Both the position numbers and the translations under genes were made by a program. Of a DNA stretch of 64,000 nucleotides, positions 6,263 through 43,969 are shown one piece after another. This stretch comes from Glutamicibacter sp. JL.03c. Lineage in GTDB: Bacteria > Actinomycetota > Actinomycetes > Actinomycetales > Micrococcaceae. The notes beneath the pieces were generated by a model. It was not told where the DNA came from, did no database searches, and was given only the letters and a program-made list of their open reading frames with translations. Where the stretch lies: assembly GCF_025854375.1 (NCBI RefSeq), contig NZ_CP107575.1, positions 620,001 to 684,000 on the forward strand, written 5' to 3'. Each line of letters opens with the position of its first letter. Position 1 is the stretch's first letter.

Positions 6263-6779
6263 AGTTTCACTCCTCGTATCTTTCTTGATCTTGTCGTGGA
6301 ACCGACGCCCGCACTGCCATGACAATCGAGCCAAAGATTACTCTCTGAAGTCACATACGGACACCGGGCGACTCATCGAAATCGATAGATTCCTACTCGA
6401 AAACCGCCTAAAAACGGGCTTCGAGCGATGAAACGCTTGAGCGGATAGTTATCAACTCTACCAAAAATCCGATTATTTCCCCTAAGCGGGGTGTGTCCCA
6501 CGTCTCGCGCAAGAGGCCTTGAGATGCCTTGTCCACGCGAGGCCGACCGGCTGAAACCGTTGAAGACATTAGGCATTGAGACGAGTTGAATGTGAAATTT
6601 GTGTGCGGAAGCTTGGCGCCAAAAATGTGGCGAAGGCCTCTGAACGACACGGCAGGGAAACCGCGGAAAACTAAGAATTCCGCCCGTCACAGAGCTATAT
6701 TTTGAGGATTCTTCATTGCCGGGCACCCGCGTTTCGTCGAACATCCGGCACCGGCTGTTGGGTTGAGGCGGACACGACA
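6263..6779. other. Intergenic region without a convincing gene
   Basis: About 520 bases upstream of the MHS transporter. Possible reading frames here lack a ribosome binding site and show no protein-like composition. It should contain the transporter promoter on the minus strand, but I cannot identify -35 and -10 elements with confidence. Confidence 0.5.
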
Positions 6780-6816
6780 ATGCCCCAAGGGTGCCGGCGA
6801 GGCATCTTGGGGCATA
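6780..6816 (-). terminator. Hairpin terminator of the small minus-strand gene
   Basis: The arm 6780-6795 pairs with 6801-6815 around a 5-nt loop, with one G-U pair. It starts 14 bases after the stop of the 94-residue gene on the minus strand. No strong U run follows. Confidence 0.6.
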
Positions 6817-6829
6817 TGGTGGACGATTG

Positions 6830-7114
6830 TCAGCCTCGCAGGCCGACAGTTGCTTCAGCATCGATCCGCAGGAATGAGGAACCGATGACGGCAAAAGCGC
6901 CGGGGATCAGAAGCATCCTGTGCTTGGGGTTGTAAAAAATCTCTTCGATTGGAGATGCGAGTACCCGGCGGACTTTCTCCAGCAGGCGATCGTTTTCCAG
7001 GGACAGACGCTGCTGTCCAGTTTCGATGACCACACGATCTTTATCGGTACTTACCGACGCGCGCATCCATTCGTCATCGGGGGTACTGATAGTCTCCGAC
7101 TTAATCAGGGACAC
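6830..7114 (-). CDS. Small protein of unknown function (94 aa)
   Basis: I do not recognise the family. The GTG start at 7114 has an AAAGGCGG Shine-Dalgarno sequence about 8 bases upstream. The product has a charged N-terminal half and a moderately hydrophobic stretch (MLLIPGAFAVIGSSFL) near residues 66-81, which might fold as a beta-rich core or a weak membrane segment. A hairpin terminator follows directly, so it is a monocistronic unit. The ribosome binding site plus terminator support a real gene; the function is open. Confidence 0.6.
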   Translation of the reverse strand: MSLIKSETISTPDDEWMRASVSTDKDRVVIETGQQRLSLENDRLLEKVRRVLASPIEEIFYNPKHRMLLIPGAFAVIGSSFLRIDAEATVGLRG

Positions 7115-7276
7115 GGTTATTACCGCCTTTATCGTTCGTTTCGCCCTAGCGCGGATCCGCTCAGGCCAGTGACCGATGGGCGCACTATGTGTGGTTTAGC
7201 GCATACCAACTGACACATCGAATATATCGCGTCTGGCCAGCAGTCGCCTCTTATTCCCAGAGAATTAATCAACCTG

Positions 7277-10200
7277 TTACTCGAGCAGTCCTCTGATGTC
7301 TTGTGCGGTGAGCGCCTTAGAGAACCCATCGGCTTCGTCCATGACGGTGGAGATCAACTTGCGCTTGCTTTCCTGCAACGCAACGACCTTCTCCTCGATG
7401 GTGCCCTGGGAGATCATCCGGTAGACCATCACCTGACGAGTCTGGCCGATACGGTGCGTGCGGTCAATGGCCTGGGCCTCGACCGCAGGATTCCACCAGG
7501 GATCCAAAAGGAAGCAATAGTCCGCTTCGGTCAGGTTCAACCCGAAGCCACCGGCCTTCAGGGAGATCAAGAACAGAGGCGCTTCGCCTTCCTTGAACTG
7601 CTCGATGACCTTGGAGCGATTTCGCGTATTTCCATCGAGATACACAAAATTCACGCCTCGTTCGGTGAGCTTGTCGGCCAAGACCTTCAGATACGAAGTG
7701 AACTGGCTGAAGACCAATGCGCGGTGGCCTTCGCCCAGAACATCGTCCAGCTGATCAAACAGGGCTTCCAGCTTGGACCCCGGGACATCAGATAGTTCCG
7801 GGTCAACCAATGAAGGTTCCAGTGCAAGCATGCGCAAGTGCGTCAGCGACTGGAAAATGGTAAAGCGGTTGCGGTCAAGGTCCTCCACCAGGTGCAGGAT
7901 CTTCTGGCGCTCGCGGTTCAGGTGCGTGTCGTACACATGCTGATGCTCATCCGAGAGGCGAACCAACAGTTGCTGCTCCTGCTTTGGCGGCAGATCGAGG
8001 ACCACCGATTCCTTGGTGCGTCGCAGCATGAACGGCTTGATGCGGCGCTGAAGCAAAGCCAAGGTGTCCTTGTCGCCGAGCACTTCGATAGGACGGGCGA
8101 ACTGACGGTTGAAGCGGCTCGTATTCAGGAAGAGCGCCGGTGCTACCAGAGACAGCAAGGCGCCGAGCTCGGAAAGATTGTTCTCCATGGGGGTACCGGT
8201 CACCGCCAACTTGAAGTTGGTCTGCAAGTTCACTGCGGTGCGGTGGGCCTTGGTGGAACGGTTCTTCACGAACTGGGCCTCATCGAGGATCAGGCCTGCG
8301 AAGCGCTGCGCCTCATAAATCTCGTCATTCAGGCGCAGCAGCGTGTAGGTGGTGAGGATGACGTCGTAGTTCTCGGCCAATTCGCTGAGCTGGCGTGGCG
8401 AATTCAGTGTTCCCTCGATGCTGGTCACGCGCAGGCTCGGGGCAAACCGCTTCACTTCGGTTTCCCAGTTCGAGACGACGGAGCTTGGCGCAACCACCAA
8501 GAACGGGGCCGGAGCCTGCTGGGCCGCTGGCAGCTTGGCGCACGCCTCGCTGTCATTCCACAGCCCATGGGCATGAAGGATCAAGGCAATGGTCTGCAGG
8601 GTCTTTCCCAGGCCCATGTCGTCGGCCAGGATCCCGCCGAAACCGCCTTCATACAGCCGGCTCAGCCAGCGGAAGCCTTCCACCTGGTACGGGCGCAATT
8701 GCGCGTTCAAAGTTTCCGGGACGCTGGCTTGCTCGCCCTCGGCTACCTTCAGCAAGGAGCGCATGCGGGCGATGAACAAATCGGCGCCGTCAATGCCTTC
8801 GGCGAGTTCATCAAGCTCTTCAAAGATGGAAATCTGGAAGACGGTAAGCTTCAGGTCTCCATCTTTGGGCTTGTCGTTAAGCGCCTGCGCCTCGTCCACG
8901 AGGGCCTTGAGCTTCGCGAAGAGCGGCTGGTCCAGGGAGAACCAGGTATTGTCCGGCAGCTTGATCTTCATCGCGCCATTGCTCATGGCCTCGACGATCT
9001 GAGAAAAAGTAACCTCGTGGTCGCCCACGGTGATCAGCAATCCCAGATCCAGCCAGTCGGTGCGTTCATGGTTCACCGCATTGATCTTCAGCTGTGGAAG
9101 TTCGCGCAGCTGGCGGAATACTGGCCTAGTGCCTTTTTCACTGAGCTTCACCACAGGCAGGCTCTCGATGGCCGGCAAGATCTCAGAGACGAAGGTGATC
9201 ACGCTTTCGCCCGAGTAGAATTTCGGGGAAAGATCCGGGTTACCAGCACCGGTGGTTTGCTCGAAGACCTCGTTGATTGCCGCGCGCAACTGCTCCTCGG
9301 CCTCGCAATCGTAGACCTCGTGCTGGTCCGGAACGCCGGGGTAGCGAACCTGGAATTCCAAGGTAGCCGAGTCATTGGGCTCTCCCTTGTCGTTCAGATC
9401 CCGCTTGTAGGTGGCCGTGGCCTGGACATAGGGAGGCTTGAGATCGGGGAGCGCCAACTCGTCGCTGGCGCTGCGAAGATCAAAACGGCGTGCCAAACGC
9501 GGGTAGGTCGATTCAAAGAAGCTGTCGATTTCCGCAACCGGGACGGTGACCGGACGGCGGTCGACGTACCAGCGGCGATGGGCTTGTGCGACCGGTTCCT
9601 GGCTACGCGCCAACCAGATCTCATCGGGCTGGCCCAGCTGGGCGTAGAAGCCATGGTCGGCGATGACGCCGCTAGGGGAGTCGGAATCGAGGCTCAGGTC
9701 CTGGCCGTCGATATGCAGGATGCCGCCGAGCTGCATCTGCTGGTCATCGAGCGTGGCCTGCATGCTGAAACTGGCTGGCTCCACGATGCGGATGCGCTGC
9801 TCGGAGCGGGTGGAAATGAGCGCGATGCCCAGCTCCTGGGCCTGCTGGAGCAGCGGCCAGAGGAGGTCCGAGGCGTATTCATCCATGAACAGCCAGTCTT
9901 CGTCGACCTTGAACTGCAGCTGGGTATCGCTACGGGCCATGGAAGCAAAGCGGGTGAACCAGTGGTGCTGCGAACGCAGCAGGTTCCACCCGTAGGTCTT
10001 GAAGCCCAACGTGGTCCAGCGCAATTGCCCGCGCACCCAGCGGCCCTCGGAATTGCGGACCATCGGGCGCACACCCAAACGGAAGCGCTTATTGCGGGTG
10101 GGGTGCGGGATGGTTCCGGTGGGCATCCACTGCTGCTGCTGGGTGGTGTTCTTCGCGTCAAAGAGCATGAATTGCAGGCCCATGGCGACCACCGGGTCGT

Positions 10201-30913: not shown

Positions 30914-33409
30914 ATGCTGCACGTAGCACTTTCCAATATCAAGACCTATGCGCGACGCTATATCGCTGTCGTGCTCGCAGTTGCCATCGGCACCGCGTTT
31001 CTCGCCGCAACACTGGCCGTGAACTCGTCAACACAGGCGACCTTGCGGAATTCCTTGGGGGATTCCTACAAGAACGCCGACTTGGTCGCCTACTGGGATC
31101 CAAGCCCGAGCGCCGACCCGGAGGAGACGACGGAGCTGACCGCCAAGGAGATCAGCGGCGTTCGCGAGCTTTCCGGCGTGTCCACCGCCTATGGCCTGGG
31201 CTTTGCCTACGGCCAGCTGCATACCGCGGACAACGGCTACACCGTGCAGATCCAGCCGGTCGACCCTAACCAGGGTCTTGGCGGCATGGAACTGCTCGCA
31301 GGCCGGGCTCCACTGGCCAATAACGAGATGACCATCGATGAATCACACGCTGAGGAGATGGGCGTTTCCATTGGCGATGTTGTCGCACTGAGCGATGACC
31401 AGGGCAAAACCCAGAACATCAAGGTTGTTGGCATCCAGCGATCATCAGCCAACCCGCAGACTTCTGCCTACGCGCTGGCCGGGATGAGCGAAAAGGCCTG
31501 GAACCACTTCGCTGGCGACGGCGCGGTCTTCCGCGATGTGGTCATCAACGCCGAGGGCTCCATCGATGCTGTGCGGCAACAGCTGCAAGACTACTTCGCC
31601 GACCAGAAGAAGAAGGACGTCTCGGTAGTCACCGCGGACCAAAAGGTCATCGACGAAGTAGCGCAAATGACCGGCGGCACCGACCAGCTGAGCGTCATCC
31701 TCGTGATCTTCGCCTTGATCGCGCTGGTCGTCACCGGCCTGGTTGTCGTCAATACCTTCTCCGTGGTGATCGCCCAGCGCACCCGTGAATTGGCGCTGCT
31801 GCGTACCTTGGGCGCCAAGCGCAAGCAGATCCGCAGCTCGGTGCTGATTGAAGCCCTGGTCATCGGCATCGTCGCATCGGTCATCGGCGTCCTGCTGGCC
31901 ATCGTGCTGATGGCCGGCCTGATCCAGCTCCTGCATGCGCTGGTTCCTGCCATGTCCTATGCAACCTTGGCGATGACTCCGGTTGGCCTGGCCATTCCGA
32001 TTGTTGTTGGCATCCTGATGACCGTTGTCGCCGCGAGCCTGCCTGCCCGTCGAGCCATGAAACTGGCGCCACTGGCAGCCCTTCGCCCCTTTGACGCAGC
32101 CAGCGTGAAGAACCGCGCAGGTCTTGTCCGCATCATCCTCGGCGCGATCCTCGCATTGATTGGCGTTGCCTTGCTGGTCTTCGGAGCGATCAAGGGCAAC
32201 CTGATCGTCGCCTTCCTCGGCGGCCTGGTCTCCTTCCCGGGCATCTTGATGCTTGCCTCGCTCTTCGTACCGAGCAGCGTGGCAGGCATCGGCAAGGCTA
32301 TGGCCGGCAAGTCCACGTCCCGTCGCCTGGCGGCGCTGAACGCGGTCCGCAACCCAGGGCGAACCACTGCCACGGCGACCGCGCTGCTGATCGGCGTGAC
32401 CTTGGTATCGATGATCATGGTCGGCGGGCAAACCGCCAAAGCCAGCCTGAACAATTCGGTAGCAGCCGAATATCCAGTGGACATGATGGTGTCCTTCTAC
32501 GATGGCACGACGAATCAAGCCAAGGCTGACAAGCTGGCCAAGCAGATCGACGACGTTGATGGCGTGAGCGCAACCTCGACCTTCACCAGCGCCTCGGCCG
32601 ACGTGGAACTGTCCAAGGGCGAACTGGTCACTATGCAGCTGCTCGCCGTTGATCCGGATCAGTACGCCACGACCGTTCTGGACCAGAAGGTCGTTCCGCA
32701 GGACGGCGAACTGATCTTGTCGCAGTGGGAGACTGAGCAGAAGACCATCGAGGTGGCCGGCACCTCGCTGAAGGTCAAGCAGTCCGGGGCGTTGCTCTCG
32801 GGAAATCTGATCACGAACGAGACGTTCAAATCCCTGGGAATCAAGGATCCGAATTCCTACCCGGGCATCATCGTCAAGGTCGATTCGACTGTCGCTGGTG
32901 CGCAGATCAATGACTTGGTGACCGAGATTTCGGATATCACCGGTGTTGAATCTTCGATGATCGACGGAGGCGTGGTCATGAAGTCGATGTTCACCCAGAT
33001 CATCGACGTGCTGCTGACCATCGTCTCGGCGCTGCTGGCCGTTGCCGTGCTCATCGCGTTGATCGGCGTCGCCAATACGCTCAGCCTCTCGGTGCTTGAA
33101 CGCACCCGTGAGAACTCGCTGCTTCGGGCGCTGGGTTTGAAGAAGAAGCAGCTGCGCAGCATGCTGGCTACCGAAGCGGTATTGATCGGCGGTGTTGCGG
33201 CATTGCTGGGCATGATCCTGGGTGTCGCCTATGGCCTGCTCGGTGCCCAGTCTGCCCTGGCATCCATGGGAACCCTGACCTACTCCATCCCGTGGTGGCA
33301 GCTGGCAGCTGTCCTGGCCATCAGCGTGATTGCTGCGCTCCTGGCTTCCATCACGCCAGGCCGGCGGGCTGCAAAGCTTTCACCCGTGGAAGGCTTGGCC
33401 ACCGAGTAG
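30914..33409 (+). CDS. ABC transporter permease with two FtsX domains
   Basis: An 831-residue permease partnering the ATPase encoded upstream. It has an N-terminal transmembrane helix (RYIAVVLAVAIGTAFLAATL), an extracytoplasmic MacB_PCD-like domain, a first FtsX domain (about 260-390, with LIALVVTGLVVVNTFSVVIA and RTRELALLRTLGAKRKQ), two central helices, a second extracytoplasmic domain, and a C-terminal FtsX domain (about 690-825, with RTRENSLLRALGLKKKQ). The duplicated layout is typical of actinobacterial LolDE-like exporters. It ends at a strong terminator and is convergent with the Wadjet-like operon. Confidence 0.92.
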   Translation: MLHVALSNIKTYARRYIAVVLAVAIGTAFLAATLAVNSSTQATLRNSLGDSYKNADLVAYWDPSPSADPEETTELTAKEISGVRELSGVSTAYGLGFAYGQLHTADNGYTVQIQPVDPNQGLGGMELLAGRAPLANNEMTIDESHAEEMGVSIGDVVALSDDQGKTQNIKVVGIQRSSANPQTSAYALAGMSEKAWNHFAGDGAVFRDVVINAEGSIDAVRQQLQDYFADQKKKDVSVVTADQKVIDEVAQMTGGTDQLSVILVIFALIALVVTGLVVVNTFSVVIAQRTRELALLRTLGAKRKQIRSSVLIEALVIGIVASVIGVLLAIVLMAGLIQLLHALVPAMSYATLAMTPVGLAIPIVVGILMTVVAASLPARRAMKLAPLAALRPFDAASVKNRAGLVRIILGAILALIGVALLVFGAIKGNLIVAFLGGLVSFPGILMLASLFVPSSVAGIGKAMAGKSTSRRLAALNAVRNPGRTTATATALLIGVTLVSMIMVGGQTAKASLNNSVAAEYPVDMMVSFYDGTTNQAKADKLAKQIDDVDGVSATSTFTSASADVELSKGELVTMQLLAVDPDQYATTVLDQKVVPQDGELILSQWETEQKTIEVAGTSLKVKQSGALLSGNLITNETFKSLGIKDPNSYPGIIVKVDSTVAGAQINDLVTEISDITGVESSMIDGGVVMKSMFTQIIDVLLTIVSALLAVAVLIALIGVANTLSLSVLERTRENSLLRALGLKKKQLRSMLATEAVLIGGVAALLGMILGVAYGLLGAQSALASMGTLTYSIPWWQLAAVLAISVIAALLASITPGRRAAKLSPVEGLATE

Positions 33410-33486: not shown

Positions 33487-33523
33487 AAGGTCCGGTTCCC
33501 TGCCGAGGGAACCGGACCTTTTG
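33487..33523 (+). terminator. Terminator of the ABC exporter operon
   Basis: A perfect 15-bp stem (33487-33501 with 33506-33520), GCCG loop, then a T run. A second small hairpin (33444-33450 with 33457-33463) precedes it. It lies 15 bases from the end of the convergent jetC gene and could serve both. Confidence 0.9.
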
Positions 33524-33537
33524 CCGTGCATGGCGCG

Positions 33538-36500
33538 CTAGCTGCGCAGCGTGATGGTGGTGGCCATGGCAGGTGAGCGACCGGTGGTCACGAAGCCCGA
33601 GATATTCGATCCCGGGTGCTTGATGATGTCCGTAATGGAACCCAGATGGCGGCTCAGATCGATCTTGTCCTCGGGCGCGGCCAGCACCAGGTGGAAGCCG
33701 AATTCCTGCAAGGCGCGTATGCCGGCAGCTGCATATTCGGAGTTGGCCTGGATGAAGGCTTCATCGATCATCACGGTACCGAAGGACGTGAATCCGGCCG
33801 AAGCGAAGCCCAGCTGGTAGGCCAGCGCAGCACCCATGATGAAGGAGGTGAAGCGCTGCCCCTCGCCGCCGGAGAGGGTTCCCGGCTCCAAACCGGTTTC
33901 GATTTCGCCATTGGTCTTGTGCTCATTGCAGCTGATGACCACGTGCTGGCGAACATCCAGCACGGTGGAGCGCCAGGCGTTCAACGCCGGATCGCTCAAT
34001 GCTGTCACCAGGGATTCCAGCGCCTGGTACGAGGTCGCCAAAGTGGTTTCATCCTTGGTCGTGTAGGCCTCCTGCAGGGCATCCTTCAATTCCTTGCGGA
34101 AGTTTCCGGCCTCGGCCGGAATCGCGTTCTCGACTTCCAGACGCAGGATGGATCCGTGTTCGAAGGTCACCTCGGCCAGGATCTGGTTCAGCGGCTTGAT
34201 CCGTTCGGAGATCATGCGGCGTTCTTCATCCAGCAGCTGCAACAGGTCGCTGAAGCGCTCATAGGAGCGGTTGGCGAAGTATTCGCGGAACTGCGCTTCA
34301 TGATGCGGCAAGCCATCGGCGACAATCTGGTCGTGCAGTTGCGTATAGTGCTCGGCAGCCTCGGCAGAAGTGCCGTGGGTCTGGGCATGCGAGGTGCCGA
34401 AATCCCGGGCAAAACGGCGGAAGGTTTCACTGAGCTGGCTGCCGATTTCCTGGCGCTTGCTGCTCAGCGAGTTCATCTGGCTGCCCAATTGCAGCTTGAC
34501 TTCGGCGAAAGCCTCGCTGATCTGCTCGCTGGCCGGGCAGTTGCCGGCAACAACCTGATCCAGGACCGGGCCTAGGTGCTGATGCTGGCGCAGGGACAGC
34601 GGAATCGCCTGCTCCCAGTCCTGTCTCGGCTCCTGCGCGGTGGCGAGGACCTGCTCGGCGCGCTGGATCTGAAGCTGCAGATCCTGGATGCGCGAGCGCA
34701 CCAGCGCCAAATCGCCAACCAGCTTTTCGGCGTCGGCCTTGGCGGATTCGATCTGCTGGCGAACCCGTGAGGAATCGCCGGAGAGCGAGAGGGCATCGCC
34801 GAGTTTCTGCTCGCCGCGGCGCAGGGCCTCCAACGCTGGCGAAGAATCCAGCTGGCTGAAGCTGCGCTCGTCAGCGATGATCGCCTTGAGCAGCTGGGAC
34901 TTGGCGACCACCTTGTTCTTGGCGGCACTGCGCTCATCGGCTGATGCCTGGGCTTCGGTGATCTTCTCTTCCAAGCCGGCGGCCTTGGACTGCAGCTCGG
35001 AGATTTTTGATTCGTTGGTGAAGCCGAGCAGGTACTCGGAAGCAGGAAGCCCGCGGGTATCGCGCTCAAAGGTGCCATGTGCGGTCTTCATCGTGCCCGC
35101 CGGGGTGATGGCCTTGGGATGCACGTGCATGGCAGCGTCGTTCTCGACGCAGGCCAGCGGGTAGTCCGCGGTGATCTTGGCCTTGAGCCAGGCACCGGCC
35201 TCGCCGGGAGCGAAGTCGAGCTTGGTCACCAGATCGGCAGGCCCGGCTTCGGCGTGCTTGGGCTGCTGTGAAATATCGGTCCACCGCACTCGTCCCAGGC
35301 CATTGAGCTGGTCAATAGCGTGGGTCACCTGGCCCAGCAGGTCGCCCGGAACCAGCAGGGTGCGGGCCAGGGAATGCAGGGCTTTCTCGGCCGCCAGGCG
35401 CCAGGTCGAGGCGTCGGCCGCGACATCCATCAGCTCGCCGGCGAACGGCAGCTGTTCCTCGCTCAGCGAGCAGGCCGAGGCAATGGCGCGGCGAGCCGCG
35501 ATGGAGCGGTCATCGATGTTGCTGGCGCGACGCTGGTAGGAGCGAATCTGTTCAGCCAGCGTCTCGGCCCGCTTGCGCAAGTTCACCAGCGAGGCCATGG
35601 CCTCATATTCCACGGTCTGCGCATCATGGGTGATCGAGGCCAGCTGCTGCAAGGTGCGCGCAGCATTCGCACGCAACTCGTCCAATCCGGTGGCGGAGAA
35701 CTCGAAGTTCAACCCCGCCTCCGATGCCTGCTGCTGCAAGGCGCGAATGTGGTTCTCCTTCTCGCTCAGCGCCTTGCGCGCGACATCGGCTTCGCGTTCC
35801 AGAAGCATCAGCGAGGCAGAGCCAGCCGAATCGTGGGCGGCTTCCAAGGACTGCAACTGGTCATCGAGCTGCTCCTTGCGGGACCGAAGCTCTTGTTCTT
35901 CTGCCTGCAGGGTCGACAGTTCGCTGTGATGGGAGGCAAGGTCATTGCGCAGGACCAGCTGGCGGACCTGGGACTCCAGCTCCTGGACATCGCTATCGAG
36001 CAGCTGGCGGGTCTCGGTGATCTGCCGTTCCAGCTGCCGGTAGTCCTGGTCCTGCTGCGGAACATCGGCCAGTGCATCACGCTGGGCGCGAGCGGTATCC
36101 AGCTGGCGATAGATGCCGCGAAGGTGGGCGAAGTCCTCCACTGCCGCAGCTGCGGCCCTCAGCGTTGCCGGTTCCTCGAGCACTTCGTGGCGGAAGAACT
36201 GGTTGACGCCCTTGGCCAGGCCCTTGCCGTTTTGCAAGGTGCGCAGCAGGGCAAAGGCCTTGTCGCTTTCAACCCCGAGGCGACGGCGCAAGCGCTCGAT
36301 AAATGCCTTGTGGGTGTCGAAGGCCTCGGTGGGAACCAGTGCCTTGGAAAGCGAAGAGACGGTGAAGCGGCGCGGGCCATGATGTTCCAGCTCCGCGATA
36401 TCGATCGTGCCTTCGCACAACAGGTAGTGCTTGGAGACTTGGCCTTCCAAGCCGGCGTCGGGCAGGTCGAACACCGCACCGGAGGTGACGGTATTGCCCA

Positions 36501-36864
36501 TGCCGTCGTCGTAGCTCAGGATGATGGCGCTCCAGGTTGCCCCGGGACGCTGGTAGACCGTGCCCTCGGCGGTCTTGAACTGGCGGCCTCGCATATAGGA
36601 GAAGGTGGTGCGCCGGTCCTCGCGGGTGGCGGCGTCATTGGCCGATTCATTCAGCCTCGGCGTCGCGAAGAACACATGGCCCATGGCGTCAAACAGCGTC
36701 GACTTGCCCACGCCGGGATGGCCGGTGACCAGGGTGCCGGCACGGTCGACGGCCAGATCGTGAAGCCCGTGGAAGGTGCCCCAATTTACGATCTGCACCC
36801 GGCTGAGGCGATGCTGGCCGGGGTTGACGGCGCCGCCCAGCGGAAGAGTCATTTCAATGCTCAT
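33538..36864 (-). CDS. jetC: JetC-like SMC/MukB-type ATPase (Wadjet)
   Basis: An 1108-residue SMC-like ATPase. Walker A is GHPGVGKST (48-56). Long heptad-rich coiled coils run through about residues 250-430 and 640-950. The signature LSGGEGQRFTSF and Walker B TVMIDEAFIQAN lie near residues 1000-1050. The N-terminal QIVNWGTFHGLHDLAV is the usual opening of MukB/MksB/JetC proteins. In Wadjet, JetABC extrudes DNA loops on circular plasmids that JetD then cuts. It starts 3 bases after the jetB-like stop with GGAG inside jetB. No jetD follows; the next plus-strand gene is convergent. Confidence 0.85.
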   Translation of the reverse strand: MSIEMTLPLGGAVNPGQHRLSRVQIVNWGTFHGLHDLAVDRAGTLVTGHPGVGKSTLFDAMGHVFFATPRLNESANDAATREDRRTTFSYMRGRQFKTAEGTVYQRPGATWSAIILSYDDGMGNTVTSGAVFDLPDAGLEGQVSKHYLLCEGTIDIAELEHHGPRRFTVSSLSKALVPTEAFDTHKAFIERLRRRLGVESDKAFALLRTLQNGKGLAKGVNQFFRHEVLEEPATLRAAAAAVEDFAHLRGIYRQLDTARAQRDALADVPQQDQDYRQLERQITETRQLLDSDVQELESQVRQLVLRNDLASHHSELSTLQAEEQELRSRKEQLDDQLQSLEAAHDSAGSASLMLLEREADVARKALSEKENHIRALQQQASEAGLNFEFSATGLDELRANAARTLQQLASITHDAQTVEYEAMASLVNLRKRAETLAEQIRSYQRRASNIDDRSIAARRAIASACSLSEEQLPFAGELMDVAADASTWRLAAEKALHSLARTLLVPGDLLGQVTHAIDQLNGLGRVRWTDISQQPKHAEAGPADLVTKLDFAPGEAGAWLKAKITADYPLACVENDAAMHVHPKAITPAGTMKTAHGTFERDTRGLPASEYLLGFTNESKISELQSKAAGLEEKITEAQASADERSAAKNKVVAKSQLLKAIIADERSFSQLDSSPALEALRRGEQKLGDALSLSGDSSRVRQQIESAKADAEKLVGDLALVRSRIQDLQLQIQRAEQVLATAQEPRQDWEQAIPLSLRQHQHLGPVLDQVVAGNCPASEQISEAFAEVKLQLGSQMNSLSSKRQEIGSQLSETFRRFARDFGTSHAQTHGTSAEAAEHYTQLHDQIVADGLPHHEAQFREYFANRSYERFSDLLQLLDEERRMISERIKPLNQILAEVTFEHGSILRLEVENAIPAEAGNFRKELKDALQEAYTTKDETTLATSYQALESLVTALSDPALNAWRSTVLDVRQHVVISCNEHKTNGEIETGLEPGTLSGGEGQRFTSFIMGAALAYQLGFASAGFTSFGTVMIDEAFIQANSEYAAAGIRALQEFGFHLVLAAPEDKIDLSRHLGSITDIIKHPGSNISGFVTTGRSPAMATTITLRS

Positions 36865-36867
36865 CGG

Positions 36868-37554
36868 TTACTCCTGCACCAACTCTGGGGTCTGTTCAGC
36901 CAGTTCGTCGTTCTCGTCAGCTGCTAGGTTCAAGGCCGGTTCATTGGCATCAATGGCTGCGATATACCGCGGGATGTCCTGGATATTGCCCAGAGGCAAA
37001 GCCATCGCCAATGCAGGGGAGATGCGGAACTCGTTCTCCAACTCGGTGCCGGTCAACAGCCGCAAGGACTGCAGGCGGGCAATGGCGGCATCGCAGGATT
37101 CGGCAAAGCGCTTGTCATCGCGGTCGCTGGCCTGGCGGTGCTCGGCCAGGATCTCGTGCATCGTGGATCGGGAAGCCACCGCATCGGCTCCGCTGCCGGA
37201 CTGCTGCTCCAGCAGCAGGCGCAAGCGCAGTGCCAGCAGCGTTTCATCGCGCTTCAACGGGCGTCGCGGGGCAATCGGCGCGGTATGGACCTGCTCGATG
37301 TGCACCGGGGCCAGCATCGCGATCTTGCGATCCATATCCAAGCTCAATGACAAGAAGATCTCCGAGAAGTAATCGGTGATCGTCTGCTGCTGATCCAGCA
37401 GCAACTGCCAGGCCGCGGCATCGATCGAGCCGTCGAGGTAAGGGCCACGCAAGAGGCGAACCAGCAGCTGGCGCAGCTGCAGGGAGTACTTTCCGGTATC
37501 ACCTTCGAACAACGGTTCGGCGATCGGTGCGGCGTAGGCATCGCTCGTGGTCAT
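36868..37554 (-). CDS. jetB: JetB-like kite subunit (DUF4194, Wadjet)
   Basis: A 228-residue protein of the DUF4194/MukE-MksE-like type. It has winged-helix character and recognisable segments LRQLLVRLLRGPYL, a central ETLLALRLRLLLEQQ and the acidic C-terminus. In Wadjet and MksBEF complexes this kleisin-bound KITE subunit dimerises on the kleisin JetA. Start ATG overlaps the jetA-like stop by 4 bases (ATGA), and its end lies 3 bases before jetC, so the three genes are tightly coupled. The name rests on order, size and domain type. Confidence 0.78.
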   Translation of the reverse strand: MTTSDAYAAPIAEPLFEGDTGKYSLQLRQLLVRLLRGPYLDGSIDAAAWQLLLDQQQTITDYFSEIFLSLSLDMDRKIAMLAPVHIEQVHTAPIAPRRPLKRDETLLALRLRLLLEQQSGSGADAVASRSTMHEILAEHRQASDRDDKRFAESCDAAIARLQSLRLLTGTELENEFRISPALAMALPLGNIQDIPRYIAAIDANEPALNLAADENDELAEQTPELVQE

Positions 37555-39011
37555 AGCGGCTCCTTCGTGAAGCTTAAAGCGGGCAGGATAGCGGTTCTGA
37601 TCGAACCATCAAGTTGCTGGAATTCAATGTTGACCAGGTCAGCCTCGTTGAGCGACTCGCCATTGGTGCGGCCGATCTCCACCAGGGCGCGAATGGTATT
37701 CAAATGCCGATGCTCGTCATCCAAGGCGGCGAATACTTCATCCATGCGCACCGCCGAGCCTGGCTGGCCATCCAAGTGCCGGGTAATCGATGCGCGCAGC
37801 AACGACATGTCGGCCTGGGGCGTCGCCGGATTGCGGACGATGTCGGCCTCGCTGAATTCCGGCGCCTGGGCCAACGGTGGAGGCGCGACATGCTCGGAAG
37901 GATCGTAAATGCCCAATCCCGAGAGGGTCATCAGCTGCGGGCTGTACAGGTCCATCGGCGTCAGGCCGTTGCGGGGTTTCAGCGCAGTTGACTTGCTGAT
38001 TGCCAGTTCCGCCTCGCGGACCGCCTGGCGCAGAAGCTCAGCTTGCTTGTAATCCTCGGATTGCACAAAGGCATGCAAGGACTCGGACAGCTTGCCGTAG
38101 GACGCGTGCACTTCGGCGGCCTGCCGGCGCAATTCCCGCAGCAGGTTCGTGAGGATCTGGCGCTCTGTGGTCTGTAGGTCGTCAACAAAATCGCGCTCGA
38201 GGACTTCAGCCAACGCCGAGCGGAATCGCTGCTGGGCATCGGGGGAGTTGAGGAATTCGGTGAATCCGCTGAAGGTTTCGCCTTCGGCCGTTGATCGCAG
38301 CTGGCGATCGGCTTCGAGCACCTGGCCCACCGCGACGCCCTTGGCTGTGGAAGCATCGAGGATGCCTTCACGCAGCGAGTGCAACATGTCCTGGACGCCA
38401 TCGCGCATGCGGCGGAAGTCCGCGGGGAGGCTTGAAGCAAGGTCCAGCAGCGAACGCGTGGCCGACAGGGCGGTGGTCCGCGACAACACTGCAGGATCAT
38501 CCCCGCTGCGCAGCTGCTCGATTTGCGCCTGTCGTTGGGCGATCTGGGATTCCAGGGCGCGGATTCGGGCCTCGGGATCGGGGTCCGTCTCGTGGACCAA
38601 GGATTCCAGCGAGGAAAGCAGGGTATTCAGGCGCGAGGAGTTCAGGTGCGAATCATCGGTGGAAAAATCTGCGAGGAAACGAAGCGCGCGCAGGGTCTGG
38701 GCACTGGGTTCGTAGACGAAGCGCCCATCGATTAGCGGACGGGCAAGAATCCCTTGCTTGACCCAGGCCTCGGCAAAATCCTGGGCGGAATACGACTGCG
38801 GGATCTGCTCGTCGCTTTTTCGAGCCTGCTTCAAAAACGAATCCAGCGACGCATGGAAGAGTTCCAGCGCTACGCGGGATCGATCTGCGGTGAACTCTGC
38901 CCGAATGAAAGCAACCGCCCAGGGTTGGGCCGTCAAAAGACGATATGCTGCCGAGCCTTTGAACTGCTGAGCCTGAAGCCACAAACTATTCGCGCGGTGC
39001 GAGGGCTGCAT
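37551..39011 (-). CDS. jetA: JetA-like kleisin subunit (DUF3375, Wadjet)
   Basis: A 486-residue DUF3375-type protein, first gene of the operon. It has a helical N-terminus (QQFKGSAAYRLLTAQPWAVA), a glutamine/arginine-rich coiled coil (residues about 145-330) and a C-terminal winged-helix-like part (ADMSLLRASITRHLDGQPGS, RTNGESLNEADLVNIEFQQLDG). It corresponds to the MukF/MksF kleisin that bridges the two SMC heads. AAGGAAG lies before the ATG. The promoter must lie in the 226 bases shared with the divergent lipoprotein gene. Confidence 0.82.
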   Translation of the reverse strand: MQPSHRANSLWLQAQQFKGSAAYRLLTAQPWAVAFIRAEFTADRSRVALELFHASLDSFLKQARKSDEQIPQSYSAQDFAEAWVKQGILARPLIDGRFVYEPSAQTLRALRFLADFSTDDSHLNSSRLNTLLSSLESLVHETDPDPEARIRALESQIAQRQAQIEQLRSGDDPAVLSRTTALSATRSLLDLASSLPADFRRMRDGVQDMLHSLREGILDASTAKGVAVGQVLEADRQLRSTAEGETFSGFTEFLNSPDAQQRFRSALAEVLERDFVDDLQTTERQILTNLLRELRRQAAEVHASYGKLSESLHAFVQSEDYKQAELLRQAVREAELAISKSTALKPRNGLTPMDLYSPQLMTLSGLGIYDPSEHVAPPPLAQAPEFSEADIVRNPATPQADMSLLRASITRHLDGQPGSAVRMDEVFAALDDEHRHLNTIRALVEIGRTNGESLNEADLVNIEFQQLDGSIRTAILPALSFTKEPL

Positions 39012-39237
39012 GTACTTCCTTGATCTTTAGGACGCCTAACCAATCAATTCTAAATCATCGGGCCCAACAGTAAATGTGAATCCATCGCGTCTGGGCCTGA
39101 ATCTGGGGGGATTGCCGATGAAACAGCGTCTTGGGGTGTTGCCAAAACCTCATCCTGTGTAGGGTCGAATTAGATGGATGACAGCTTGTTTTCTGTCCAA
39201 GCATGGCAAAAGCCAAAATGCGCGGAGGTGGCGATCA

Positions 39238-40527
39238 ATGAAGTCTTTGCGACTGGCGATATCCGTCAGCCTGGTCATGGCAATGGCGGCCTGCAGCGGC
39301 CAAACGGCCACCGAAACCCCGGATTCCCAGTCCGCCGCTCCCGAACAGTCCCAACAAGAACAAGACCGGGTCGAAAGCGTGAAAGCCGAGATCAACCGGC
39401 TCGCCGATGGCTATGACTACGACGCCGCAATCAAGCTCGCCAAGAACGACAAGAGCGAGGAACTATCCTCCATGGCCGCCGGACTGGAAGACGAAAAAGA
39501 GCAGACCAAAGCGTGGGAGCGGCCCGATCAGATTCCGCACCTGTTTTTCCACTCGCTCATTGTGGATACCGACCGCGCCTTTGACAAGGACAACAGCTCC
39601 GCCGGGTACGGGGACTACATGGTGACGCAGAAGGAGTTCTCGGCCATTCTGTCATCGCTCTACGCCAACGACTTCGTACTGGTCAATCCGCAGGATTTCG
39701 CCGGGCTGAATAAGGCGAAGCAGATGGAATACCGAAAGATCATGCTCCCCAAAGGCAAGAAGCCGCTGGTCTTGTCGGTGGATGATCTCAGCTACTACGA
39801 ATATATGGAAGGCGACGGGTTCGCCAGCAAACTGGTGCTCGACGAGCACGGAGAAGTCCGCAATGAATATGTTGATGCCGACGGCAAGAAGCACGTCGGC
39901 GCCTATGACGTGACCACGATGGTTGATGATTTCATCAAGGAGCACCCTGATTTCAGTTATCGCGATGCTCGCGGCCTGGTTGCCATGACCGGTTATAACG
40001 GCGAGTTCGGCTACCGCACCTCGCAAAGCCAGTATCCAGATAACAAGAACCTGAAACAGGATCAGCAAAAAGCCGCCGCAATCGCCAAGGCCATGAAGGA
40101 AACCGGGTGGGTCTTCGCGTCGCATTCATGGGGCCACATCCAAACTGGCACCGTGAGCATGGGGCGCCTGCAACGCGATTCCAAGCTCTGGAAAGAAGAA
40201 GTTGAACCAATCGTGGGCTCAACGGACCAATTCATTTATCCCTTTGGCTCTGACATTGCGCATACCGGGGCCTATGCGGGGCCGCGGTACGAGTTCCTGA
40301 AGAAGCAGGGCTTCAAGTACTTCTACGGCGTGGATGGCACCACCGAATCCTGGATGCAGCAGCGCCCGGATTATCAGCGACAGATGCGCATCAACGTTGA
40401 CGGGTTGCAGTTCGCCAAGGAGGAAAAAGGCGACCGCCCAGTACTGGGCCCGTTCTTCGACGTGGAAAAGGTCATCGACCCGGCCAGAAAAATGGCCGAG
40501 TCGGCGTCCTCGTCTACAAAGCCATGA
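39238..40527 (+). CDS. Lipoprotein with polysaccharide-deacetylase-like domain
   Basis: A 429-residue secreted lipoprotein. The lipobox MAMAAC puts the lipidated cysteine at residue 19, after a short basic signal peptide. A Gln/Glu-rich linker follows, then a NodB-like domain: KPLVLSVDDLSYYEYM stands where the TFDDG motif is expected, and FASHSWGHIQTG resembles the metal-binding HxxxH motif. FIYPFGSDIA matches the later YP.G motif. A role in cell-wall or polysaccharide deacetylation is likely. ATG 39238 has GGAGG 9 bases upstream. Its last 14 bases overlap the convergent nuclease-helicase gene. Confidence 0.82.
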   Translation: MKSLRLAISVSLVMAMAACSGQTATETPDSQSAAPEQSQQEQDRVESVKAEINRLADGYDYDAAIKLAKNDKSEELSSMAAGLEDEKEQTKAWERPDQIPHLFFHSLIVDTDRAFDKDNSSAGYGDYMVTQKEFSAILSSLYANDFVLVNPQDFAGLNKAKQMEYRKIMLPKGKKPLVLSVDDLSYYEYMEGDGFASKLVLDEHGEVRNEYVDADGKKHVGAYDVTTMVDDFIKEHPDFSYRDARGLVAMTGYNGEFGYRTSQSQYPDNKNLKQDQQKAAAIAKAMKETGWVFASHSWGHIQTGTVSMGRLQRDSKLWKEEVEPIVGSTDQFIYPFGSDIAHTGAYAGPRYEFLKKQGFKYFYGVDGTTESWMQQRPDYQRQMRINVDGLQFAKEEKGDRPVLGPFFDVEKVIDPARKMAESASSSTKP

Positions 40528-43500
40528 AGGCGCCCAGCTGCGACAACGCCAAAGGGGAAGAAGGCAGATAGTCAGTGAGCCTCTCACTGCGCACGATAAT
40601 CGCCTTCCACTGGCCTCTGGAAATCGCTACGTTGATCCGGTTCCGATTCAAGAGGAATTCAATGCCGCGTGAAGCGTCATCCGCGCTGGAGCAGGCCATC
40701 GTCATGAGCACAACGGGCGCTTCCTGGCCTTGGAACTTATCGACCGTGCCGACCTTGGCGGCTTCCAAGCCTTCCGCGGCCAAGACATCGCGCACCAGAT
40801 TGACTTGGGCGTTATAGGCGGCAACAACCAAGATGTCAGCCGGTTCCAAGGCTCGTTGCGGCTTGCCGGGCGCCGGGCTCCACATCAGTCCCAGATGCTC
40901 GCGAACCAGCTGAGCAATCGCCTTGGCCTCTTCAATCGAGCTGACGGTATTGCCCCGATGCTCGACCAGCGTAGTGCTCACCCCTGCGGGAGTGCCTTCC
41001 AGCGACCTCTGGCCTGCAGCCGGGGCTGAAAACAGCTGGTGGTCGTAGCTCAAGGCCGAGACCTTGGCACACAGCTCGGGGTGCATGCGCCAGGATGCCG
41101 CAAGGAAGTAGCCCAGTTCCGATGGCAGTACAGGTTCCCCGGCAGAGAGCCACCCCAATGCGGACTCGTCGACTGGCTGCGGATGGGATCCCTGGGTGAC
41201 CTGGGGAAGCTGTTGCGGGTCGCCAAGCAGCAGAAGATTGCGGGCAGCCCGGGAGACGGCCAGGGTATTGGCCAGAGAGAACTGCCCTGCCTCGTCGATG
41301 ACCAGCAAATCGAGGCTTCCTGCCGGGACTTTGGAACCGGTGAGGGTCCACGCCGTGCCGCCGATGAGCGCTCCTTCGGCCGAAGCCAGAACCTCGGCAA
41401 TGGAGTCCTTAGAGGTTCCGGACCATGGCACCGGGTCCTTGTGCTTGACCTCTTTGGCGACGAGTTCGGGATCTACCCCTGCGTCGACTGCTTTGCGGAG
41501 AACATTTTCGACGACGGCGTGGGATTGGGCGACGACACCGATCTTCCAACCGTCCTGGACGAGTTCACGGATCACGTGGGAGGCAACGAAGGTTTTTCCG
41601 GTGCCGGGAGGACCTTGGACGGCAAGATATGAGTGGTCCAGGTCCTTCAGCGTCTCGACAACTGCTTGATAGACCTGAGGCTGGCCATCGAGAACAATCG
41701 GCTGCGCCGGGGCGGAAAGCGTCTTGAGCCGCGGGGAGATCCGGCGCAAGATATCGATTCCCGGCTGCTGTGGCAGCACAGGAACCGTTGACCCTACTTT
41801 TTGCGCGATTTCCGATAAGGCGTCGTCAATGCTCTTGGTCATCAAGGGCTTGTCCGGGGTGAGCGCCATGGGCGCCGATCCGTAGGGAGGGATCTTGGCG
41901 CTGGACTTTTCAGCAATAACGATCCATCCCTCCCCGACTTCCATGACCGTGGCATTAAATGCTCCGCCGCGCAGGGATTCGTCGACTTCCATGCCGTCGG
42001 GCAACGGGGAGGCGAACATGGCGAAAACCGATGAGCCCGGGGAGAGCAGCGAGCCTTCGGCCAAGGTGCCATTGAGCTTGGTCAGCCGTGTGAAGGTCCG
42101 TGCTCGTTCGGTGGGCTTGTGCCAATCTTCGAGGATTTCGGCGTTGTCGACCGAGAACACGCCTCGAACGTCGCCCCAATCATCAATGGGTGCCGAGAGC
42201 CGGTCGAAGTGCTCCCACCAGAATTGTTTTTTCTCCCGGCGGTTGTAGCCGGTGGCTGCCGCCACCATGGCGATGGCGCGATCGTCATCACTCAGGGGCT
42301 GTCCGGACGGAAGGTTCGCCAGGTAGTCCTGCAGCCGCAGTTCTTCTGGGGTCGGCTCGTATTCTTCTTTGGCTTCTTCCTGCAACGGCATGGCAGGAAG
42401 GCTCTGCGGCTGGTGGTCTTCCAGCGTCAGCAGCCAGTCGCGCAAACGCAGCGTGGAGAGGCAATCGTATTCGTTGTAGTCGGCAATCGAGGCCAGTACA
42501 TCGCCGGCTGTGTCAGCATCGTTGGCATCGCGCGCTTGCATGTAGTGGGCGTAGGCCACTACCGAGGCGCCGGCGTCGGTCACGTCACCGCCCCTCAGAT
42601 GCTGCCCCATGTACAGCGGTTCAAGTTTCTTGATCGAGTAGGAACGGGTGGAAACCACTAATGAATTTCGCACCGTTTCATAGAGATCCACCAGCAAGTT
42701 TTCCCGCAGCCAAGTATCAACTTCTTCTTCACCGGCGATGTGCACCTGCGACAGCTTGCGCAGGGCGCTCTTTTCATAGGACGCGTAGTGGTAGATCTTC
42801 ATGTGCGGGAACTGCTGGCGCCGTTGCTGGACATAGCTGATGAAATCCAGGAAGGCCTGGCGCTCTTCGGCCCGGTTGTGTGCCCAGAAGGGCCTGAACA
42901 CCGGTTCCCCGGTGTCGTTTTCGATGACGCCGAAAAGGTATTCCAAGCCCCAGGAGCCGTCGGTGCGTTCTTGGTAGAGCGGGTCACCCTCGAAATCGAA
43001 GAAAATATCGCCGGGGTCTGGTGCCGGAAGCTGCGAAATGGTTTGGCTGGATTTGACCCGGAAGCTCACACCTTGGACTTCACCGTCAACGCGCCCTAGC
43101 CCCAGCTGCATTTGCGCCTGGTCGACCATACGAGCCAGGGATGTTCCAGCCGGCGCTTCCAGCGCAGCCAATTGCTCGATGGTGAACACCTTGCGTTTGC
43201 GCAGCTTCTCACGCTGCACCATGGACATGCCGGCGACGAGCAGGACATCGCTGGTTGCCCGGACTTGCTCGGCGCAGTAATCGCAACGGCCGCAGATGCG
43301 CAGCTGGTCCGAGTCCCAAGCAACCGGCTGCGAGGATAAGCGATGATTCTGGATCATCGACAGGAAGCGAGCACGCTGGGCACGGAAGACGGGAAGCACC
43401 TCGTCGACGCGATGGACCGAATGAGTGCCATCGCCGAGGACGAGCGTGGTCTTGCTGGATACCTTGATGCCTTCAGCCATCATCTGATCCGCATATGCGG

Positions 43501-43969
43501 CGACCTGGAGCAGGGCGCTGACCCGCGCGTGGCGGGCCAACTTCGTATCCCAGACGGCCCAGGAGCCATCGGGCTGGCGCACGAGGAAATCAGCGAATCC
43601 AAGGAATGAGCCGTCAAAGAACGTGGCCTGGAATATGACATCCGCACCACTGCGCAACACCTGCATGGTTTGCTCGTGAGCATGGCGTAGTCCCTCGGGC
43701 GTCATGGCGGGACGGTCGTGGAACTGCTTGACGCCCTGGCCGGTGGCAGGGTCATATTCGCCGTAGGTCTCGATCAGCTGATCCAAGACGTTGTGCTCGT
43801 GAACGTCGCCGAGAATGGCGGTACGCTCGAGCATTTCGTCGCGAGCGTTGTCCGCAGCAGGACGGCGGCCGAGCTTGACGTCGAGGAGAAATAGCGACTG
43901 GAAATTGCAGTCGACGGACACGGCGAGGTCGCTGGCTGAGAAGATGAACTGATCCTCTAAAAAGAACAC
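40514..43969 (-). CDS. TM0106-type RecB-like nuclease / RNase H-like exonuclease / SF1 helicase fusion
   Basis: An 1151-residue multidomain protein. The N-terminus (about 1-240) is the TM0106 RecB-like nuclease, with WAVWDTKLARHARVSALLQVAAYADQM as PD-(D/E)xK core and four cysteines (CGRCDYC nearby) for an iron-sulfur or zinc site. A DEDD/RNase-H-like domain follows (DIFFDFEGDP; later DYNEYDCLSTLRL). The C-terminal half is a DNA2/Upf1-like SF1 helicase: Walker A VQGPPGTGKTFVA, motif II LLVIDEAGQFSLA, motif III LLLGDPQQLPQV, and NRNRINVAISRG. Function unknown; nucleic-acid processing or defence is likely. Starts at GTG with AAAGGCG upstream. Confidence 0.9.
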   Translation of the reverse strand: MFFLEDQFIFSASDLAVSVDCNFQSLFLLDVKLGRRPAADNARDEMLERTAILGDVHEHNVLDQLIETYGEYDPATGQGVKQFHDRPAMTPEGLRHAHEQTMQVLRSGADVIFQATFFDGSFLGFADFLVRQPDGSWAVWDTKLARHARVSALLQVAAYADQMMAEGIKVSSKTTLVLGDGTHSVHRVDEVLPVFRAQRARFLSMIQNHRLSSQPVAWDSDQLRICGRCDYCAEQVRATSDVLLVAGMSMVQREKLRKRKVFTIEQLAALEAPAGTSLARMVDQAQMQLGLGRVDGEVQGVSFRVKSSQTISQLPAPDPGDIFFDFEGDPLYQERTDGSWGLEYLFGVIENDTGEPVFRPFWAHNRAEERQAFLDFISYVQQRRQQFPHMKIYHYASYEKSALRKLSQVHIAGEEEVDTWLRENLLVDLYETVRNSLVVSTRSYSIKKLEPLYMGQHLRGGDVTDAGASVVAYAHYMQARDANDADTAGDVLASIADYNEYDCLSTLRLRDWLLTLEDHQPQSLPAMPLQEEAKEEYEPTPEELRLQDYLANLPSGQPLSDDDRAIAMVAAATGYNRREKKQFWWEHFDRLSAPIDDWGDVRGVFSVDNAEILEDWHKPTERARTFTRLTKLNGTLAEGSLLSPGSSVFAMFASPLPDGMEVDESLRGGAFNATVMEVGEGWIVIAEKSSAKIPPYGSAPMALTPDKPLMTKSIDDALSEIAQKVGSTVPVLPQQPGIDILRRISPRLKTLSAPAQPIVLDGQPQVYQAVVETLKDLDHSYLAVQGPPGTGKTFVASHVIRELVQDGWKIGVVAQSHAVVENVLRKAVDAGVDPELVAKEVKHKDPVPWSGTSKDSIAEVLASAEGALIGGTAWTLTGSKVPAGSLDLLVIDEAGQFSLANTLAVSRAARNLLLLGDPQQLPQVTQGSHPQPVDESALGWLSAGEPVLPSELGYFLAASWRMHPELCAKVSALSYDHQLFSAPAAGQRSLEGTPAGVSTTLVEHRGNTVSSIEEAKAIAQLVREHLGLMWSPAPGKPQRALEPADILVVAAYNAQVNLVRDVLAAEGLEAAKVGTVDKFQGQEAPVVLMTMACSSADDASRGIEFLLNRNRINVAISRGQWKAIIVRSERLTDYLPSSPLALSQLGAFMAL

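Follow-up and report, generated by a model that had tools for sequence, protein, structure and literature searches.

A JetABC operon without JetD in Glutamicibacter sp. JL.03c: a possible second condensin derived from Wadjet type I

We describe a three-gene operon in a 64,000-nucleotide stretch of the genome of Glutamicibacter sp. JL.03c, hereafter the window (contig NZ_CP107575.1, positions 620,001 to 684,000 of the forward strand). The operon, jetA-jetB-jetC, lies intact on the minus strand at window positions 33538-39011 and encodes a DUF3375 protein, a DUF4194 protein and an ATPase of the structural maintenance of chromosomes (SMC) type. These correspond to three of the four subunits of the plasmid-cutting Wadjet type I systems. 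The fourth, the nuclease JetD, is lacking both next to the operon and in the genome, within the sensitivity of the profiles used. On balance, we think that the operon encodes an active three-subunit SMC complex that descends from Wadjet type I after an early loss of JetD, and that is likely to serve as a second condensin, much like MksBEF of P. aeruginosa.

The operon and the search for JetD

The initial annotation of this DNA had described the gene order, an overlap of 4 bases between jetA and jetB and a gap of 3 bases between jetB and jetC, and the open reading frame coordinates agree with it on each of these points:

37551..39011, minus strand: jetA, DUF3375, kleisin-type subunit (JetA/MksF), 486 amino acids
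36868..37554, minus strand: jetB, DUF4194, KITE-type subunit (JetB/MksE), 228 amino acids
33538..36864, minus strand: jetC, SMC-type ATPase (JetC/MksB), 1108 amino acids

Its family calls (JetA-, JetB- and JetC-like) are likewise backed by profiles from Pfam and PADLOC. The jetA product matches Pfam DUF3375 (PF11855; E-value 2.3e-104, 350.3 bits) and PADLOC JetA1 (766.6 bits), and the jetB product matches Pfam DUF4194 (PF13835; E-value 5.2e-34, 117.8 bits) and PADLOC JetB1 (282.5 bits). For JetC the matches are Pfam AAA_29 and SbcC_Walker_B together with PADLOC JetC1 (1084.9 bits), and the protein carries a Walker A motif (GHPGVGKST), a signature motif (LSGGEGQ) and a Walker B motif (VMIDEAF). 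All three PADLOC matches are nearly full length. By sequence, then, the JetA, the JetB and the motif-bearing JetC that define Wadjet type I are all present. The operon does not stand out in G+C content (62.6%, compared with 61.0% in the remainder of the window).

The nearest solved structures are also those of Wadjet. A JetA profile searched against solved structures (E-value threshold 0.01) found the JetA chains of 8q72, 8as8, 9qxt and 8dk1 in alignments that cover profile positions 18-301 or 18-293, and a phmmer search with JetC (threshold 0.001) found the JetC of 8dk2 and 8as8 over nearly the full length. JetB had no match among solved structures at an E-value of 0.1. Neither MukB nor MukF was among the matches of JetC and JetA, so with JetB unmatched there the search found none of the MukBEF subunits. 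The window's JetC is not the Smc of an Smc-ScpAB complex either, as it scores 51.4 bits against a curated Smc cut-off of 567.35; the true Smc gene starts at genome position 1,531,237.

The defining subunit that we did not find is JetD, which would show as DUF3322 plus JetD_C in the operon or elsewhere in the genome. The genome searched is a single contig of 3,586,856 bases with an estimated completeness of 100%. There are no matches to JetD_C (PF09983) anywhere in it, and the same profile does match C. glutamicum, one of 14 controls. The sole genome match to PF11795 (DUF3322) is sub-threshold (E-value 0.03) and sits in an mrp/tatB/sigma-factor region; we rejected it as a JetD. A profile built from eight JetDs, including the most divergent that we found, returned nothing in the genome at an E-value of 1 or below, and a separate JetD profile had no match within the window. 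The initial annotation had noted that no jetD stands beside jetC, which holds at the locus and genome-wide, and had offered a JetD elsewhere as one explanation. For this genome that option is excluded, within the sensitivity of the searches.

A JetD-less lineage in the Micrococcaceae

Is the absence of JetD peculiar to this strain? Our sample of the family comprised 197 Micrococcaceae genomes, one per species, with DUF3375 present in 110 of them and JetD_C in 50. The 137 DUF3375 loci (plus two fragments) split into a high-scoring class H and a low-scoring class L, the border being a gap between 364 and 376 bits that was chosen after the scores were seen. Class H has JetD_C within 12 kb at 45 of its 47 loci; the exceptions are in G139 and in G108, where the locus lies near a contig end and JetD_C is on another contig. 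Class L, to which the window operon belongs, comprises 90 loci in 90 genomes, one each, and JetD_C is within 12 kb at none of these; in 61 of the 90 genomes, this one included, it is absent altogether. Both classes are found together in 26 of the 197 genomes. Four class-L loci from genus g11 were set apart, as the three that were fetched share 26-27% JetA identity with the window and branch outside the main clade described below. Without g11, the main clade of class L is found in 86 of the 197 genomes.

All 18 Glutamicibacter genomes examined have class L, one copy each, and a near-full-length JetD match is found in four of them (G023, G095, G191 and G475), with in-frame stops counted in the matches of G095, G191 and G475. 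One further genome of the genus, G075, has a single weak JetD match (E-value 0.003). Since the absence of JetD runs across class L and class L is in 18/18 genus genomes, we regard the operon as a lineage and not as an accident of one strain.

The separate JetD profile had no match in the class-L loci that were fetched (40), in the best 80 among 202 named relatives or in 36 JetD-less loci fetched from the wider order; the named relatives closest to the window belong for the most part to Glutamicibacter. It matched 19 of 20 class-H loci, the twentieth being G139, and 24/24 JetD-bearing order loci; these positives also trained the profile, and hence show only that it works. The initial annotation had proposed looking for jetD directly after jetC in relatives, and there is none at the class-L loci in the stretches fetched, some of which are short after jetC (1,524 bases at L046, 626 bases at L062).

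Our scan of the order covered 297 genomes, some of them Micrococcaceae. With a class-L profile, 15 JetA loci score at least 647 bits, all of them in Micrococcaceae, and all other JetA loci, class H included, score at most 221 bits. Outside the Micrococcaceae, JetD_C is within 12 kb at 45 of 99 JetA loci and not at the other 54; this count excludes Micrococcaceae loci and takes a locus in two pieces only once, and 60 of the 99 were fetched. Of the 36 JetD-less loci fetched from the order, 8 show no jetC in the stretch retrieved.

In a tree of concatenated JetA, JetB and JetC from 113 loci, the window and 37 class-L loci form one clade with support 1.0 and a stem of 0.89. Eight order loci of genus g42 (L100, L103-L105, L107-L110) were omitted from this tree because jetC was not found. 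JetC alone recovers the clade with support 1.0; JetA alone also yields it as monophyletic, but the support printed once the tree was re-rooted is 0.47. Its sister clade has 27 tips and is mostly JetD-less; the four JetD-bearing members (L152, L154, L156 and L157) have JetDs that form a clade of their own (support 1.0), a divergent subgroup that scores only 109-118 bits with Pfam JetD_C. Over the whole tree the history of JetD requires 12-13 losses if it was never regained, or seven changes by unrestricted parsimony; L101, L106, L111-L113 and L127, with 0-453 bases after jetC, were left out of the loss count. A JetD that was ancestral in the sister clade and repeatedly lost would fit the tree, with gains as a possible part of the history, and the simplest reading of class L is that it arose by an old loss of JetD. 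This favours another option of the initial annotation, that the system has lost JetD, as an old loss across the clade (0/90 class-L loci) and not a local one.

We looked for residues that mark this loss. Some alignment columns are conserved in JetD-bearing systems and lost in class L. We dropped them as markers, as the JetD-bearing L154 and L157 share the states of JetD-less loci; L152 and L156 keep JetB residues typical of JetD-bearing systems. According to PMC10586767, JetD binding is marked by an N-terminal IFDR motif in JetB. We did not see it by eye in the JetB N-termini of either class, and some loci showed a frame that was not JetB.

Inheritance, selection and probable role

We compared the Jet proteins with rpoB, using a tree of 60 genomes, 39 of class-L type (without G095 and G157) and 21 without class L that were picked by hand. 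All 36 main-clade class-L genomes in it fall together in a 51-tip clade with support 0.90. Across these 36 genomes, class-L and rpoB distances are correlated with a Mantel r of 0.744, the highest value in 2000 permutations being 0.193. Inheritance of class L thus appears to be largely vertical, following rpoB. For class H the corresponding r is 0.87, from seven genomes and two deep types mixed, which allows no contrast with class L.

Selection on the jet genes can be compared with that on their neighbours, three of which are:

30914..33409, plus strand: MacB/FtsX-type exporter permease, convergent with jetC
39178..40527, plus strand: gene resembling polysaccharide deacetylases (sub-threshold Pfam match), transcribed divergently from jetA
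40514..43969, minus strand: fusion of a RecB-like nuclease and an SF1 helicase (TM0106 family; TIGR03491), upstream of jetA on the same strand

Against three relatives, the ratio of nonsynonymous to synonymous substitutions (dN/dS) is 0.026-0.076 for jetC, 0.031-0.049 for jetA and 0.043-0.097 for jetB. In the same pairs the jet genes show a dN that is roughly 0.27-0.65 of the values for the helicase, deacetylase and permease genes. When all pairs with a proportion of synonymous differences (pS) under 0.6 are taken, median dN/dS comes to 0.161 for jetC, 0.113 for jetA and 0.150 for jetB, and 0.195, 0.235, 0.291 and 0.092 for four neighbours under the same cut; these values are rough, as dS is near saturation in many pairs. 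The Walker A, signature and Walker B motifs are kept in 38/38 class-L JetC proteins. Judged from these substitution patterns, the jet genes are under purifying selection.

What might such a complex do? The window encodes a complete motor without its cutter, and selection has kept it, which argues for a job independent of JetD. As Smc is also encoded, the class-L complex would be a second SMC complex. We propose that a JetC ATPase dimer, the JetA kleisin and the JetB KITE subunit would together form a three-subunit SMC motor, and that its nuclease may have been lost early, in one branch of the Micrococcaceae, from a plasmid-cutting ancestor of Wadjet type I. The complex would still bind ATP, load on DNA and extrude loops as JetABC does, and extrusion would end without a cut. 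Its most likely use may be as a second condensin beside Smc, organising or segregating the cell's own DNA in the manner of P. aeruginosa MksBEF. The initial annotation had also considered an MksBEF-like organiser that works without the nuclease. Of its options this is the best that remains, because the three genes are intact, are under purifying selection and are in every genus genome examined; the organiser role is what we infer from this.

It is useful to set the operon beside the known systems. The Wadjet type I systems (JetABCD, i.e. MksBEFG of C. glutamicum and EptABCD of M. smegmatis) share with it the JetA, JetB and JetC profiles, the A-B-C order and the nearest solved structures. Unlike these, the window's genome has no JetD/MksG that we could find, and its operon is present in one copy per genus genome, is mostly vertical in descent and sits in a separate, long-stemmed clade. 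P. aeruginosa MksBEF is, in passages of PMC10586767 and PMC7083940, a kleisin-KITE-SMC complex without a nuclease that exists beside Smc-ScpAB. By that description it resembles the window, where a three-gene kleisin-KITE-SMC operon without MksG/JetD is found and Smc is also encoded, although the window's JetB matches Pfam MksE weakly (32 bits, cut-off 27) and DUF4194 strongly. A chromosomal role has been reported for P. aeruginosa MksBEF; lacking JetD, the operon does not qualify as Wadjet, and we infer that it would work like MksBEF. The MukBEF of enterobacteria is a further SMC complex of the Wadjet group without MksG/JetD, one of several such members according to a passage of PMC7617805. 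MukBEF apparently replaced Smc-ScpAB (PMC10586767), whereas the window genome keeps Smc. Complexes of the Wadjet group without a nuclease are therefore already in print, and this lineage adds a member. Among the matches listed in our search of open-licence papers, no title names this Micrococcaceae lineage.

Several observations weigh against this proposal. The operon is missing from some related genomes (e.g. G037 of genus g7) and from 15 of the 51 tips of the rpoB clade, so it is not indispensable. Some horizontal transfer is likely, since L056 (G007, genus g8) does not group in the Jet tree with the two remaining g8 loci and rpoB unites all three. The ATPase gene of the neighbouring exporter is constrained as much as the jet genes or more. 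No alignment column cleanly tracks JetD, hence the sequences bear no mark of an altered function. Finally, a chromosomal role should not be assumed, because C. glutamicum MksBEFG, which has its nuclease, does not fold the chromosome according to a passage of PMC7083940.

The most serious alternative, which we consider unlikely, is that the complex acts against plasmids without JetD, either by trapping or silencing small circular DNA or by recruiting another nuclease such as the RecB-helicase. JetD-bearing relatives do act on plasmids in the literature, and in several genera class-L jetABC is preceded, on its own strand, by the RecB-helicase gene. This is so at 17 of the 40 family loci that were fetched and at 30 of the 80 named loci, in stretches that are sometimes short; the gene stands, e.g., 41-81 bases before the jetA frame in L046, L062, L194, L195 and L201 of the Arthrobacter group and 151 bases before jetA in Arthrobacter sp. 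ERGS1:01; in L203 it was also placed upstream of jetA. That said, among the 86 main-clade class-L genomes it is within 12 kb of the operon in only 29 and absent from 19, and it is present in 38 of the 111 remaining genomes. The association (p 9e-10, uncorrected for kinship) is not obligate, and we did not adopt the helicase as a replacement nuclease or partner. The spread of distances between helicase and jetA suggests an eroding ancestral synteny.

Plasmids are also found beside the operon. G. arilaitensis Re117 (G191) has an intact class-L operon (L034) and circular plasmids of 8.5 kb (pRE117-2) and 50 kb (pRE117-1), which count against a stringent anti-plasmid role, although resident plasmids may have adapted; its JetD-bearing Wadjet (L072) has a jetC split over two frames, 5090-6748 and 6369-8468. 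In G181, which has class-L jetABC and no JetD, a 7009-base replicase contig (L333, G181:C15) has a 46-base terminal overlap and is probably a small circular plasmid. These cases show coexistence only and are not a test of restriction.

It is very improbable that the class-L complex relies on the JetD of another Wadjet system in the same cell. The 26 genomes with loci of both classes would permit this, but most class-L genomes have no JetD_C match, only 4 of the 18 genus genomes have a near-full-length JetD, and the JetA proteins of 20 longer class-H loci are just 22-32% identical to the window's. For the present genome the idea is refuted, barring a JetD beyond detection by profiles. Least credible of all is a decaying Wadjet remnant: one subunit is gone, and apparently was lost repeatedly among the sampled loci, but the open frames, the intact ATPase motifs, the low dN/dS, the retention throughout the genus and the diversification inside one long-stemmed clade refute decay.

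If the second-condensin reading holds, these operons are a natural experiment in the conversion of an SMC motor from immunity to housekeeping. The disarmed form is found in all 18 Glutamicibacter genomes examined and in 86 of the 197 family genomes, and armed systems in only some of the same genomes, so that armed and disarmed cousins could be compared within one cell in 26/197 genomes. A bolder claim, which we put forward tentatively and with somewhat less confidence, is that one ancient nuclease loss gave the Micrococcaceae a second housekeeping condensin from a plasmid-cutting defence system, in an event separate from the origin of P. aeruginosa MksBEF. There is also a caution for annotators, as PADLOC JetC1 matches class L at 1085 bits and defence-finding software can consequently label it Wadjet. 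One published table from this family already shows a Wadjet label without the cutting subunit: in Table 6 of PMC11719660, a PADLOC table for Paenarthrobacter lasiusi S21, one "Wadjet" has JetA, JetB and JetC only. The strain is of the same family as Glutamicibacter. The table counts this locus among the defence systems, next to a type I system that has JetD1, and the missing JetD passes without comment.

Flanking DNA and related loci

The gene neighbourhood of the class-L operon is largely kept inside the genus. The initial annotation put the gap between jetC and the convergent exporter at 127 bases; it is 128, as the permease gene ends at 33409. We rejected the idea that the exporter displaced jetD, because in other genera different genes follow jetC and there is still no jetD in the stretches seen. 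Two minor elements flank the operon:

33487..33520, no strand assigned: hairpin in the convergent gap, 17 bases beyond jetC, with a perfect 15-bp stem and a 4-base loop
39047..39074, minus strand: TTTACT-16-TAGAAT, a weak promoter-like site 35 bases upstream of the jetA start

The hairpin is stable (-33 kcal/mol, z -6.1, with none of 200 shuffles as good) and is a possible terminator. Against this, the run of T that goes with it is short, with 4 T on the plus strand and 2 of these inside the stem, and a terminator scan called none at the hairpin. The promoter-like site is weak, with one found where 0.3 are expected by chance.

Some related loci are of interest in their own right. In G112 there are JetD fragments (L304, G112:C2), and its sole DUF3375 locus is a class-L locus on another contig; the fragments are probably the remains of a lost JetD-bearing Wadjet. 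The record of Sporosarcina beigongshangi REN13 (L198) has a Micrococcaceae-type class-L jetA with 51% identity and is probably misnamed or a mixed assembly. In the order-level family f11 (L100, L106), several kb with transporter genes lie between jetA and jetB. Lastly, class-L-like relatives are carried by large plasmids, one of 754 kb in Arthrobacter sp. ERGS1:01 (L336, NZ_CP012477.1), with no jetD annotated beside it, and the other, from Arthrobacter sp. StoSoilB13, with a plasmid record of 1.35 Mb (NZ_AP024648.1).

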